A stretch of DNA of 64,000 nt. Source: Rhizobium sp. Q54 (GTDB lineage: Bacteria > Pseudomonadota > Alphaproteobacteria > SHVZ01). The notes beneath the pieces were generated by a model, which saw only the letters and a program-made list of their open reading frames with translations, did no database searches and was not told the DNA's origin. The stretch is from assembly GCA_945871425.1 (NCBI GenBank), contig CAMBVS010000016.1:1-64000 (forward strand), given 5' to 3'. Shown piece after piece: positions 8,002 through 13,632 of the stretch. Position numbers and translations under genes: made by a program. Within the stretch, counting starts at the first letter, position 1. The number at the start of each line of letters is the position of its first letter.

Positions 8002-8469
8002 ATGCGCATCGAGGTCAAACGGCGTCTCCTGATCGCATTCGTTCTCTGGTTCATGCCGCTGGCGCTTCATGCGGAGGCCCCCGCTGTGCGGACCATCGTG
8101 ACGCAGCTCGGCTTCGGTCAGGCGGTGACGAAGCTGGAGGAGTCGGTTGCCGCCAATCAGATGCTGCTCTTGGCCAAGGCGAGCGCGAGTGCCGGAGCGG
8201 CGACGCGAGGAATCGCGATTCCCGGAAATGCCATCCTCGAGGTGTTCCGCAATGACTACGCCGTAAGGATGCTTCGCGCGAGCATCGCCGCCGGAATCGA
8301 GGCACCGCTCCGTCTGTACGTTACCGAGGGAGCCGATGGCCGCGCCGTGGTCTGCTACCGCCTGCCGAGCCAGGTGTTCGCTCCTTACGGCGGAGGGGAT
8401 CTCGCGGAGATGGCAAGAGAGCTCGATTTGGTCTTTGCGAAGATCGTCAAGGACGCGACCGGCCAATAG
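8002..8469 (+). CDS. Secreted DUF302-family protein
   Basis: A 155-residue protein with a signal peptide (about 24 residues, ending ALHA) and a DUF302 domain. The domain shows a split beta-alpha-beta pattern with AVTKLEESVAANQMLLLAK, then a GNAILEVFRND strand and PLRLYVTEGADGRAVVCYR. A single Cys lies in VVCYR. DUF302 proteins have no settled function. The stop is three bases before the next start, so it is co-transcribed with the sulfur-transporter gene, which suggests a sulfur- or thiol-related role (inferred). Confidence 0.7.
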   Translation: MRIEVKRRLLIAFVLWFMPLALHAEAPAVRTIVTQLGFGQAVTKLEESVAANQMLLLAKASASAGAATRGIAIPGNAILEVFRNDYAVRMLRASIAAGIEAPLRLYVTEGADGRAVVCYRLPSQVFAPYGGGDLAEMARELDLVFAKIVKDATGQ

Positions 8470-8472
8470 CCG

Positions 8473-9615
8473 ATGGCGGCGATGTCCAAGGCCGGTGGCG
8501 CGGGGGTGTCGGCGCTGTTTGCGGGCGGTACGATTGCGCTCCTCACGCTATACGTAGGTTGGAGACAGGGAGCTTTGTTCCTCGTCGCCTGTTGCCTCGG
8601 CATCACCCTCTACCAATCGGGATTCGGCTTCAGCGGTGCCTATCGGGCATTGTTGGTGCGTGGCCGAGTCGATGGCCTTCGGGCCCAGGCGCTGATGATC
8701 GGGATCGCGACGCTGATGTTCGCGCCGCTGCTCTGGAGTGGGGAGGCGCTCGGTTGGGACTTCCACGGAGCCGTCGCTCCCCTGGGACTTCAGCTCGTCA
8801 TCGGCGCCTTTCTCTTCGGCATCGGCATGCAACTTGGCGGCGGGTGCGGTTCCGGAACGCTCTTCACCCTCGGCGGCGGCAGTGCCCGAATGGCCATCAC
8901 GCTCGTCGCTTTCTGCGTGGGCGGATTCTGGGCCAGCCTAGACTGGCCGATCTGGACATCGCTGCCGTCGTTCGGCCCGCTCGTCCTCGGCGAGCGGATG
9001 GGCTGGCTCCCGGCGGCCGGTCTTCAGGCTCTCGCGCTCGGATCGGTCTGGTGGGGGCTGCGCACTCTGGATCACGCACCGACGCGGACCCTGGAGACGA
9101 AGCAGGGCTGGCTCGGCTTTCCCTGGACCCTGACCACCGGCGCTATTCTATTGGCCGTGCTGAATCTCGCCACCCTCGTCCTGTCGGGCGGTCCCTGGTC
9201 GATCACCTGGGGCTTCACGCTGGTCGCGGCCAAGCTTGCGCTCACGCTCGGCTGGGACCCCGGCGCGCACGTCTTTTGGCAGGACAGCTTTCAATCGTCG
9301 GCGCTGTCGATGCCGCTGGCGAGCGATCCGGTGGTCGTCATGGATGCCGGCATCGTGCTCGGGGCGATGACGGCTGCCATCGTCGCCGGCCGCATGAAGA
9401 TCACGGGACCGCTGCGACGCGGCGTCGTCGCCGCGTCCATCGTTGGCGGGCTCATGCTCGGTTACGGTGCCCGGATCTCCTTCGGCTGCAATGTCGGGGC
9501 ATTCTTTTCGGGCGCCGCCTCGACCAGCCTGCACGGTTGGGTCTGGTTCGGCGCCGCGCTGGCGGGAAACTGGGTGGGTATCCGCCTGCGGCCGCAATTC
9601 GGCCTCGACACCTGA
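8473..9615 (+). CDS. YeeE/YedE (TsuA-like) sulfur transporter
   Basis: A 380-residue inner-membrane protein with about 11 hydrophobic segments, of the YeeE/YedE family that includes the thiosulfate transporter TsuA. The two halves carry the conserved Cys loops of the family: LGGGCGSGTLFTLGGG in the first half and ARISFGCNVGAFFSG in the second, which relay thiosulfate in TsuA. It is probably an importer of thiosulfate or a related sulfur compound. The start is ATG 8473 or 8482. Operon partner is the DUF302 gene; convergent with opgC. Confidence 0.82.
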   Translation: MAAMSKAGGAGVSALFAGGTIALLTLYVGWRQGALFLVACCLGITLYQSGFGFSGAYRALLVRGRVDGLRAQALMIGIATLMFAPLLWSGEALGWDFHGAVAPLGLQLVIGAFLFGIGMQLGGGCGSGTLFTLGGGSARMAITLVAFCVGGFWASLDWPIWTSLPSFGPLVLGERMGWLPAAGLQALALGSVWWGLRTLDHAPTRTLETKQGWLGFPWTLTTGAILLAVLNLATLVLSGGPWSITWGFTLVAAKLALTLGWDPGAHVFWQDSFQSSALSMPLASDPVVVMDAGIVLGAMTAAIVAGRMKITGPLRRGVVAASIVGGLMLGYGARISFGCNVGAFFSGAASTSLHGWVWFGAALAGNWVGIRLRPQFGLDT

Positions 9616-9643: not shown

Positions 9644-10828
9644 CTATTGCTTCGCGAGGGCCAAGACGGAGTTGCGACCCATTGCCGAGCCGTCTGTGGC
9701 GGCGGGTCTCGCCGCGGCAACAGGGTGCTTCCATGGCGTCGACTTGAACCAGCCGGCGACATAGGCCCCACCGATAAGCAGTCCCAGCGCGCCGGCATTG
9801 ATCAGGATCTGCATGGACCAGCCGGCGCCCATCTGGTCGAAGGCGATCCCGCCGAGGTTGGAAAGTACGAGGCTGAATAGGAAGCTCGGCAGGGCCTGTT
9901 GGCCGATCTTGCGAAGCGGCCTAAGCAACGGATGCTCGAGCCAGTGAATGCGCTTCTCGAGGAGACAATGGACGACATAGGCCGACGCCAGGAAATGCCC
10001 AAACCTCATTGGATCCAGGAAGGTCTTGTCGCTGTGATCGAGGATGAGGCTGCCGAGCGCGCCAACCGGCCAAAGCCATTCGGAAAGTCCAGGCAGCTTG
10101 ATGACCAGGGCAAGCAGAAGGATCAGCGAGGCAATCGAGAATAGGCGGCGGGTGACCGGTGGCGGCGCGATCCAGCCCATGGAGAGGCTGAAGCCGGTGA
10201 AGAAGACGAGCTGCCAGGCGAACGGGTTCAGAAACCATCCGCGACCGTCGGTGGGATCGGCGAGGAAATTCCACCCCGTGATGTTCGCCGCGAGGTAGAG
10301 GGCGATCGATGCGGCCGGGGCGAGAAGCACGTGGATGCGGGAGAGCGCGATCATCGCCGGCACCATGGCCAGAACCACGATGTAGACGGGCATGATGTCC
10401 AGAAAGGCCGGCACATAGCTGAGGCTGAAGAGACGGATCAGGGCCGCAGCTGGCTCGGCGAAGAACCAGGTCATGTAGGTCGTTTCGAAATAGTCGGGCG
10501 ACGCGAACAAGGTGTTCGCGCCGGCGGCCAGCACGGCGATCACGAAAAACACCACCAGGTGACTGAGATAGAGCTGCCAGCAGCGGTGAGCGATGCGGGC
10601 CGTTCCGACCAGGAAGCCGGAACGGCGAAAGGCCCCGCCGAACGCGATTGCCGAGGCGAAACCCGAGAGAAAGACGAACATCTCCGCGGCGTCGCTGAGG
10701 CCGAACCGTGCAGGGATGTAGTCGGCCAGAACCGTCCAGCGCATATGGGCGACCAGGATGATGCACATGGCAAGGCCGCGAAGAATGTCGAGCCTGGGGT
10801 CGCGAACGCGCGTCGAAGTGCCCGACAT
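9644..10828 (-). CDS. opgC: OpgC-family acyltransferase-like membrane protein
   Basis: A 394-residue membrane protein with about ten transmembrane segments, of the OpgC family (acyltransferase-3 related). In other bacteria OpgC succinylates periplasmic glucans. Recognisable are RDPRLDILRGLAMCIILVAH at the N-terminus, the AEMFVFLSGF motif after the second helix and the histidine-containing first helix. I chose the ATG at 10828 because AGGGAAG precedes it; the in-frame ATGs at 10855 and 10963 lack sites. No opgG/H neighbours are present, so the acceptor molecule is uncertain. Confidence 0.82.
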   Translation of the reverse strand: MSGTSTRVRDPRLDILRGLAMCIILVAHMRWTVLADYIPARFGLSDAAEMFVFLSGFASAIAFGGAFRRSGFLVGTARIAHRCWQLYLSHLVVFFVIAVLAAGANTLFASPDYFETTYMTWFFAEPAAALIRLFSLSYVPAFLDIMPVYIVVLAMVPAMIALSRIHVLLAPAASIALYLAANITGWNFLADPTDGRGWFLNPFAWQLVFFTGFSLSMGWIAPPPVTRRLFSIASLILLLALVIKLPGLSEWLWPVGALGSLILDHSDKTFLDPMRFGHFLASAYVVHCLLEKRIHWLEHPLLRPLRKIGQQALPSFLFSLVLSNLGGIAFDQMGAGWSMQILINAGALGLLIGGAYVAGWFKSTPWKHPVAAARPAATDGSAMGRNSVLALAKQ

Positions 10829-11225
10829 GGCTTCGTCTTCCCTGGAAAGCGACATTGCGCGATTTCGCGGATCGGTCGCGACGTACACCTGGGCCGAGAG
10901 GTCGTCCGCATTCTCGGATCGTCGGCTCGGCCCCGTAGCATAGTTCGCCTTACGCGGCAGCACGTTTCACTTCAACGCGATGCATCACGTCGATGTGATT
11001 GCGAGGTCGGCTGATCGCTTCGGGGCCGCCATCATGGCCGACTGGACCTCAGCCGGATCTGTCGAGGAGGCCGCCTACGGACTGAGCTGCGGGTAGGGGA
11101 CACCGAAGTGGCGATGATCTAGCATGATTGCTCGACCCCCGACGGCACCGGGCGAGCGGCCGGCGAAGTCCGGTTCGCGTGAAGGCGAGCGGTCGAATGC
11201 GTACGGAGTATCGTTGGTGGAAGCC
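10829..11225. other. Intergenic region, opgC / selenoprotein gene
   Basis: A 397-bp divergent gap. A short frame at about 10966-11095 reads somewhat protein-like (TFHFNAMHHVDVIA... to a TAG) but has no start signal and no recognised family. I see no RNA gene or strong hairpin. Promoters for the two flanking genes must lie here, but I cannot point to them. Confidence 0.4.
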
Positions 11226-12320
11226 ATGTCGACATCCGCAGGCGTTCACATTCGCGAGGATTTGGCGGCGGCGCACGCACGTGCTTGGCAGCGAGTGGCT
11301 GCGCCAGGGACATGGTGGACGGGTGTCGAACGCGTGGCGATTGCCGGCGAAGCCCGCCGGGCCGCGAGCTGCAGGCTTTGCCGCGAGCGCAAAGCGGCGT
11401 TGTCGCCGGAGGCCGTTTCCGGATCTCACGACAATCTGGGGGCTTTGCCTGATCCGGCAATCGACGCCATTCACCGCATCCGGTCGGATCCGGGCCGCCT
11501 CACGCGGACATGGCTGACGAGGGTCCTGGCGGCGGGGCTGACGGTCGAGCAATACGTCGAGATCGTCGACGTCGTCGCCGAAGTGGTGGCCATCGATACC
11601 TTTGCGCACGGTATGGGGATTGCCTTGACCGACCTGCCAGGCCCTGTTGCCGGGCCGCCCACGCGCAGGCGGCCGAAGGGTGCCAGGCTGGGAGGTGCCT
11701 GGGTTCCATGGCTCGAGCTCGAGGACGCGTCCCCGGAGGAGGCGACGATGTATCCGGCGGGTCGGCCGCCGGCGAACATCTACAAGGCGATGAGTCTCGT
11801 CCCGGCCGCCGTCCATGGATTTTTCGATCTCACCGTTCACCAATACCTGCCGGGTGCGGCGATGCGCGACTTCTCCCGGGAGTATCGGGCCATCTCGCAC
11901 GCTCAGATCGAGCTCCTCGCCGGCCGTGTATCTGCCATCAACCGATGTCTGTATTGAACGACGAGCCATGCGAACTTGCTCCGTGCGAGCAGCCAGGATA
12001 GCGAAAAAACCTACGATCTGAGACTGCTGCTGGGCGCTGGCGAGGGTGACGGCGGCGTCGCGAATGGCCGGCTGCTCGTGGAGTTCGCCGAAGCGGTACT
12101 TGGTGAAGACCGTGAACGCCTGCATGCCGTGCGCGGCCGTCTTCTCGCGACGCTCGGCGCGGAAGCGCTCGTAGACGCTTCCGGTGTCGTCGGATTGTTC
12201 AATGCGATCGACCGCGTTGCCGATGCGACTGGAATTCCGCTGGAAGAAGAGAAGGCTCGGATCTCGGCGGCGTATCGTTCGGAGCTCGGGCTCGATGAGT
12301 TTTCAGCCGGAAGGCAATAG
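11226..12320 (+). CDS. Probable selenoprotein: two-domain AhpD/CMD peroxidase-like protein with CxxU
   Basis: A 364-residue reading frame interrupted only by TGA at codon 244, which I read as selenocysteine. The N-terminal carboxymuconolactone-decarboxylase-like half has ASCRLCRERKAALSP (Cys49, Cys52). The C-terminal half has AQIELLAGRVSAINRCLY, then the TGA, then TTSHANLLRA. In AhpD-like proteins this is the Cys-x2-Cys-x3-His active site, so the TGA stands exactly where the second Cys is expected (C241-x2-U244-x3-H248). After the TGA the frame stays coding for 120 residues, with a helical tail, to TAG at 12318. The start is ATG 11226 with GGTGGAAG upstream. Known family members reduce peroxides through this motif. 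If the cell lacks Sec machinery it would instead be a truncated 243-residue protein. Confidence 0.75.
11955..11992 (+). promoter_or_regulatory. Sec-encoding TGA with candidate bacterial SECIS hairpin
   Basis: TGA is at 11955-11957. A 6-bp stem (11976-11981 with 11987-11992, one U-G pair) closes a five-base loop CGUGC at 11982-11986. The loop starts 24 bases after the TGA, inside the 16-37 base range known for bacterial SECIS elements, and has G at its second position, as the consensus requires. It lies within the coding sequence, as bacterial SECIS elements must. Confidence 0.6.
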
Positions 12321-12627
12321 AGAACTTCCGGAGCAAACGCCCGGTCGGTCGATCCGCAGGGAACCCCAATGCCCTTCGAAGTGGGGATTGAGAACGTCAG
12401 GCTCACGGCCCGGCGCGATGCGTGGCCCCGCTCCGAGCGCGAGCACCGACTTGTGACGAGCCGAGACGTGTCCCGACATGGCTCTCCATCTGATGCAGGC
12501 GTACAAATGCATCAACCGAGTTCACCCAGTCTTTCGAGCTTATCGCTTCGACCCCGTGCCGCAGCTGGACGCGCATTGAATCACCCGCATCGCGATTCAA
12601 TTCAATTGCCACCAGACGGAGGCTTCC
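12321..12627. other. Intergenic region without a convincing gene
   Basis: 307 bp between the selenoprotein gene and the DUF3179 gene. Short frames exist on both strands (for example minus 12403-12612) but none has a ribosome site or a recognised domain. No terminator-like hairpin with a U-run was found. Confidence 0.4.
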
Positions 12628-13632
12628 GTGACCACGCTCGCCCGGCTCCTAGCGATCGCCATCTGGATAGTCGCCGTCGATTCGACGCTTGCGCTTGCGG
12701 ACCCCGCATATTGGCTTCGGGAGTGGCCCAAGACCGACTTTACCAAGAGTTCCATTCCCTTCGGCGAAATCCTCTCCGGGGGGCCGCCGAAGGACGGCAT
12801 CCCAGCCATTCTCGAGCCGCGGTTCCTGCCCGTTCAGGCGATATCCGATCTCTCTGACCAGGACCCGGTCATCTCTTTGGATGTCGACGGGCACGCGCGT
12901 GCATATCCTCTGCGCGTCCTGACCTGGCATGAGATCGTCAACGACCGAGTTGGAGAACGCGCGGTCGCGGTCACCTACTGTCCCCTCTGCAACGCCGCCA
13001 TCGCCGTCGATCGCGTCTTGCACGGCCGAGAGCTGCGCTTTGGAGTCAGCGGGAAGCTGAGGCACTCGGACATGATCATGTATGATCACGAGACGGAGAG
13101 CTGGTGGCAGCAGTACTCGGGTGAGGCGATCGTCGGAGCTTTGGCAGGAAGCAGATTGACGAGCATTCCAATACGCATGGAATCGTTCGCGCGTTTCCGG
13201 GAGCGTCACGCGAACGGCGTCGTTCTTGTCCCTGCCGATCCCGGCTTCAGGCCGTACGGATCAAACCCATATGTCGGCTACGAAGACTCGGGATGGCCCT
13301 TTCTCTATCGGGGCGAAGTTCCCGAGCATGTCATGCCGCTCGAGCGGGTGATCGTCGTCGAGGCCGAGGCGTGGCCTCTGAGGCTCCTGCAAGAGAGGAG
13401 ACAGCTCGAGACCCGTGACCTGACGATCGAGTGGCAACCAGGCCAAGCTTCGGCCCTCGACACCCGCATGATCGCCGACGGTCGTGACGTCGGCAATGTC
13501 GTCGTTCGTCGCCGCGGGGCGTCGGGTATGGTCGAGGTAGAGCACAAGTCGACATTCGCCTTCGTCTTTTTCGCGTTTCGGCCGGACGGCACCCTCCACT
13601 CCGAGACAGGTCCGAGACGGTGGAAGAATTGA
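12628..13632 (+). CDS. Secreted DUF3179-domain protein
   Basis: A 334-residue protein with a signal peptide (cut near LALA) and a DUF3179 domain filling the rest. Family marks are DPVISLDVDGHARAYPLRVL, TWHEIVNDRVG, the cysteine motif VTYCPLCNAAIAVDR, LRHSDMIMYDHETESWWQQ and the PYVGYEDSGWPFLY segment. The family is widespread in bacteria and archaea, usually exported, and has no assigned reaction; the CPLC motif suggests a redox or metal role. The start is GTG 12628 with GGAGG six bases upstream. It stands alone. Confidence 0.82.
   Translation: MTTLARLLAIAIWIVAVDSTLALADPAYWLREWPKTDFTKSSIPFGEILSGGPPKDGIPAILEPRFLPVQAISDLSDQDPVISLDVDGHARAYPLRVLTWHEIVNDRVGERAVAVTYCPLCNAAIAVDRVLHGRELRFGVSGKLRHSDMIMYDHETESWWQQYSGEAIVGALAGSRLTSIPIRMESFARFRERHANGVVLVPADPGFRPYGSNPYVGYEDSGWPFLYRGEVPEHVMPLERVIVVEAEAWPLRLLQERRQLETRDLTIEWQPGQASALDTRMIADGRDVGNVVVRRRGASGMVEVEHKSTFAFVFFAFRPDGTLHSETGPRRWKN

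Follow-up and report, generated by a model that had tools for sequence, protein, structure and literature searches.

The window analysed here, a stretch of 64,000 nucleotides from a draft genome of Rhizobium sp. Q54, holds a reading frame that is cut by an in-frame TGA, and the question raised by this locus is whether the codon ends a protein or encodes selenocysteine (Sec). With TGA translated as U, positions 11226-12320 of the forward strand form a single frame of 364 residues that closes at a TAG (12318-12320). The TGA itself (11955-11957) is codon 244, in the context C241-L-Y-U244-T-T-S-H248. A first-pass annotation, made from the letters alone, had reported an interruption exactly at the second cysteine of the motif, followed by 120 open codons; both observations are confirmed. 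Taken as a whole, the locus is very probably a selenoprotein gene of the NF041238 family, in which Sec would be inserted at UGA 11955-11957 through a downstream stem-loop and whose product would be a fused pair of AhpD-like domains.

Homology, rather than the hairpin argument put forward at first reading, provides the decisive evidence for a selenoprotein. NF041238 is a curated NCBI family (AhpD_rel_CFYUT, 'alkylhydroperoxidase-related (seleno)protein', cut-off 175 bits), and the read-through product matches it over its full length, with 478.3 bits and residues 9-360 of 364 placed on model positions 1-356 of 357. This match supports the proposal of an AhpD/CMD-type selenoprotein with CxxU in its second active site. 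The segments on either side of the TGA each match the model separately and in order, the upstream one with 319 bits on positions 1-238 and the downstream one with 134 bits on positions 240-356, while the Pfam CMD and AhpD-core profile matches extend across the TGA. The Sec-then-T feature of the family is present (U244 followed by T245) with CxxU in the same place, the only difference found being CLYUT here for CFYUT in the family name. Downstream of the TGA, divergence from the nearest relative (L020) is 0.22, 0.12 and 0.52 at codon positions 1, 2 and 3, against 0.72, 0.85 and 0.72 past the final TAG. Because of this codon-position pattern and the separate family matches, we conclude that protein-coding constraint acts on both sides of the TGA.

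A true selenoprotein can thus be spotted by a reader of raw sequence, as confirmed here, but since NF041238 is already curated as a selenoprotein family, the gene is a member of a known group and its novelty is low. The family was named 'hypothetical protein 1' in the Sargasso Sea study of Zhang in 2005 (PMC1088965), and a 2026 review, which equates the two, lists it as 'AhpD-related protein (hypothetical protein 1, Sargasso Sea metagenome)' with motif CxxU (PMC13188914). The expectation that standard annotation would split the gene into two hypothetical fragments therefore needs correcting, as the family is known and PGAP can name the product. A CxxU in the AhpD core is common to this protein and to other AhpD-like/CMD selenoproteins (TIGR01926, PF02627 and NF041047 types; PMC13188914). 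The product matches TIGR01926 with only 40 bits, over residues 222-340, against a cut-off of 82, and a search of its own genome for NF041047, another AhpD-like selenoprotein family, gave no match above cut-off.

How general is the TGA? Among 116 genomes of relatives, eight carry NF041238 genes above cut-off (11 genes, one TGA each), and in a wider survey of 385 genomes of the class, 27 carry the family, with a single in-frame TGA in all 48 genes. The aligned codon at the U244 position is TGA in 45 of 45 loci, which answers the question, raised at first reading, of whether homologues have Cys or TGA there. Of the 48 class members above cut-off, none stops at the TGA and has unconserved sequence behind it, and identity to homologues is similar upstream and downstream of the codon. 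The loci from named genomes come from Rhodospirillaceae, other Alphaproteobacteria, a Deltaproteobacterium, a Myxococcota and two Acidimicrobiia-type metagenome-assembled genomes. These counts bear directly on the idea that a Cys codon (TGC or TGT) was turned into TGA by a mistake in sequencing or assembly. Nothing specific speaks for such an error, apart from the fact that AhpD-fold relatives carry Cys at this position, and the recurrence of TGA in every aligned locus, from many separately assembled genomes, refutes it through independent sequences; we give it practically no weight. Two distant AhpD-core relatives that lie below cut-off can be aligned and have Cys in place of Sec. The 2005 Sargasso Sea table also appears to include Cys homologues (PMC1088965), whereas the genomes searched here yielded none above the NF041238 cut-off. 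That all members found in one bacterial class use Sec and none Cys is a first addition to what is known of the family. Several genomes of the class (G070, G189, G282, G284 and G359) carry three or four NF041238 copies, all with TGA, and such multiple copies suggest paralogue expansion.

Insertion of Sec at the codon would be directed by an mRNA structure of the bacterial SECIS (bSECIS) type. A candidate apical stem-loop lies at 11976-11992 of the forward strand, with a stem of 6 bp (five Watson-Crick pairs and one U-G) and a 5-nt loop, CGUGC (11982-11986), that has G at its second position. It begins 18 nt after the UGA, and its loop lies 24 nt after it. The bSECIS rules (PMC13188914) call for a loop of 3-9 nt with G in the first two positions, a stem of 4-16 bp, a spacing of 16-37 nt and an MFE of at most -7.5; with a loop of 5 nt, a stem of 5-6 bp, a spacing of 24 nt and an MFE of -9.8, the hairpin agrees with them. 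To this extent the first-pass claim of a SECIS-like hairpin stands, including its spacing and loop G, but in a single sequence the fit is weak evidence: the rule is permissive, a hairpin that fits it as well or better accompanies 23% of all TGAs in the window, and shuffled sequences fold just as well (z -0.11). The hairpin was accordingly rejected as stand-alone evidence. Neither the window nor the hairpin gave a match in Rfam scans.

What makes the stem-loop convincing is comparative evidence only, namely its pairing and its codon bias. In an alignment of 21 sequences, 96% of the cells of the six-pair stem are paired, a share that falls to 33-60% when the stem is slid along, and the pairing includes two compensatory changes, although these sequences are related and the counts are not independent. 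RNAalifold recovers the same stem. At the tip, 19 of 20 Arg codons are CGT, compared with 12.9% elsewhere in the same genes, and 20 of 21 Leu codons are CTC, compared with 25% elsewhere, again among related sequences. This synonymous freezing of the tip codons points to a constraint on the RNA, as expected of a bacterial SECIS. On such comparative grounds, SelB and tRNA-Sec would insert selenocysteine at UGA 11955-11957 under the direction of the stem-loop.

Does the organism possess the machinery? Its assembly is a draft, 82.8% complete and in 100 contigs. It contains selD (302 bits), here encoding SelD fused to an NADH-dehydrogenase-like domain (Ndh-SelD; L016 1375-3564, reverse strand, contig C63), a fusion type already known from marine metagenomes (PMC2398784). 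Profile searches for selA, selB and tRNA-Sec found none of the three in this 82.8%-complete assembly, nor did it contain the formate dehydrogenase-selABC block when 10 kb from congener G001 served as query. The candidates that did appear were rejected: a tRNA-Sec match just above cut-off (C79) is tRNA-Ser according to ARAGORN, the weak selB matches belong to other translational-type GTPases such as CysN/C, and the weak selA match is a SelA-fold PLP enzyme rather than selA (L001 1021-2925, reverse strand, contig C83), whose 61 bits fall well short of the cut-off for selA.

In congener G002, fdhE, selA, selB, tRNA-Sec, other genes and Ndh-selD lie on one 15-kb contig. C63 is colinear with it (81% identity over 5.6 kb), and its end lies immediately upstream of the small gene that precedes Ndh-selD, between selD and the selC-selB-selA block of G002. 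Because the selD contig stops where the congener carries selC, selB and selA, the missing genes are best read as an assembly gap. In another congener, G004, the contig stops inside selA. Both selA and selB are present in congeners G001, G002 and G005, and they exceed their cut-offs in all seven gene-bearing relatives, with tRNA-Sec beside them in those read. The proposed check for Sec genes thus came out in part, with selD in the genome and selA and selB in its relatives, whereas the draft itself lacks selA, selB and tRNA-Sec; the gap at this block is a caution against inferring from a draft genome that the Sec machinery is missing. A second addition to the knowledge of the family is that its gene often lies beside Sec-insertion genes: in L052, L054 and L055 only a few kb separate it from Ndh-selD, tRNA-Sec, selB and selA, and in L081 and L082 it is close to selA, selB and tRNA-Sec.

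The same data weigh on the alternative of a relic in a lineage without Sec decoding, in which the TGA would now be a stop and the downstream part either dead or separately translated. The absence of selA, selB and tRNA-Sec from the assembly speaks for it, as does that of the family gene from all five congener genomes searched. A decayed gene is nevertheless hard to reconcile with downstream identity to relatives that equals the upstream identity, with codon-position constraint and with an intact SECIS core; the selABC gap, moreover, lies exactly where a colinear contig breaks off, and three congeners retain selA and selB. We therefore hold a relic to be very improbable, and a functional selenoprotein remains the preferred reading.

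What might this selenoprotein do? NF041238 has been known since 2005, yet it is functionally uncharacterised in the papers found. An AlphaFold2 model of the product (pLDDT 89, pTM 0.90) has AhpD-fold proteins as its best structural matches, and the C-terminal half aligns across the TGA to AhpD-fold structures 6k40, 2oyo and 2pfx, which have Cys at the Sec position. This half shares its fold with Mycobacterium tuberculosis AhpD and Pseudomonas aeruginosa PA0269, and also their relay, Glu-x11-Cys-x-(His/Tyr)-Cys-x3-His (AhpD relay residues from PMC3141380): E229, C241, Y243, U244 and H248 are spaced 0-12-14-15-19, as in both reference proteins. Glu229 (11910-11912) corresponds to the proton-relay Glu118 of M. 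tuberculosis AhpD, Cys241 (11946-11948) to Cys130, the resolving position, His248 (11967-11969) to the relay His137, and Sec244 to Cys133; all four codons lie on the forward strand, and E229, C241 and H248 are invariant in the 45 aligned loci. Unlike the two reference proteins, the product has Sec for the second Cys and apparently two fused domains per chain.

With the full relay in the C-terminal domain, the Sec selenolate, activated via His248 and Glu229, would most likely attack a hydroperoxide or a similar electrophile; Cys241 could then resolve the selenenic acid to a selenenylsulfide, and a dithiol reductant would regenerate the active site. A different chemistry for the same selenoprotein is less likely, though not remote: CxxU might act not as a peroxide reductase but as a thiol/selenol oxidoreductase, or as an enzyme on organic substrates like the AhpD-fold debrominase Bmp8. 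The AhpD fold serves several chemistries, the structural matches include Bmp8 (6ohi, 6ohj), and no AhpC occurs among the neighbouring genes scanned. Against this, the proton relay retains the spacing of AhpD exactly and without variation, and the nearest structural neighbours are AhpD proteins related to peroxidases; attack on a hydroperoxide or a similar electrophile is the chemistry we prefer.

The N-terminal half (about residues 9-132; 11250-11621, forward strand) also appears to be AhpD-like, as judged by AlphaFold2, Foldseek and a profile match. Modelled alone it reaches a pLDDT of 93.5, and its Foldseek matches are mostly AhpD-fold, but weak (E > 0.05). Aligned to each other by hhalign, the two halves give a probability of 73.5 (E 3e-5), with C49 and C52 placed on C241 and U244, and their helix registers match with a shift of 192 at the motif. 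The CRLC motif noticed in the first pass (C49-R-L-C52; 11370-11381, forward strand) is indeed present, and 40 of the 45 aligned members have the N-terminal CxxC; it is missing in the other five, however, and the half that bears it lacks the relay Glu and His. From sequence and model, we infer that the product is two fused AhpD domains, the C-terminal one carrying the Sec active site, and that the pair would serve as an oxidoreductase of hydroperoxides or thiols. The N-terminal CxxC, where present, may relay electrons or be structural.

A chain of about 360 residues with two apparently AhpD-like halves recalls the sestrins and the fused AhpD dimers of bacteria (PMC4674687, PMC11429811), and Sestrin2 is a long, weak structural match to the model (E 0.17, rmsd 16). 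The active site, however, is C-terminal and Sec-based here, whereas sestrins have it in their N-terminal half, built on one Cys, and carry a DDYDY hinge in the C-terminal half; the product departs from the sestrin active-site and hinge layout, and we claim no sestrin membership. Nor is the fused layout new, since sestrin-like fused bacterial AhpDs have already been described (PMC11429811). Our limited literature search found no paper applying this layout to the NF041238 selenoprotein family, and the resemblance of the chain to two fused AhpD domains is the third addition which, with the two above, makes NF041238 function a tractable question. As a tentative and rather speculative proposal, NF041238 proteins may be obligate-Sec enzymes built like sestrins, as fused AhpD dimers whose N-terminal CxxC feeds electrons to CxxU in the other half, giving a self-contained, selenium-dependent peroxidase or oxidoreductase whose upkeep could help explain Sec retention in some Alphaproteobacteria.

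Contamination of the contig was considered and rejected: from about 14.2 kb on it is 87-91% identical to congeners and hence belongs to the genus, even though the family gene is absent from the five congeners. The dipeptide-type solute-binding protein gene, from 14189 on, is 86-91% identical to theirs. The stretch 9647-13632, in which the selenoprotein gene sits between a gene for an OpgC-type membrane protein (reverse strand) and a DUF3179 gene (forward strand), is not colinear with congeners. Upstream, at 8002-9615 of the forward strand, a DUF302 gene is followed by one for a YeeE/YedE-type sulphur transport protein (PF04143). A role in selenium for the latter is unsupported, the selenium-linked YedE/FdhT model giving 90 bits against a cut-off of 350. 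Another YeeE/YedE-type gene occurs on contig C83, where the gene for the SelA-fold PLP protein lies upstream of it on the same strand.
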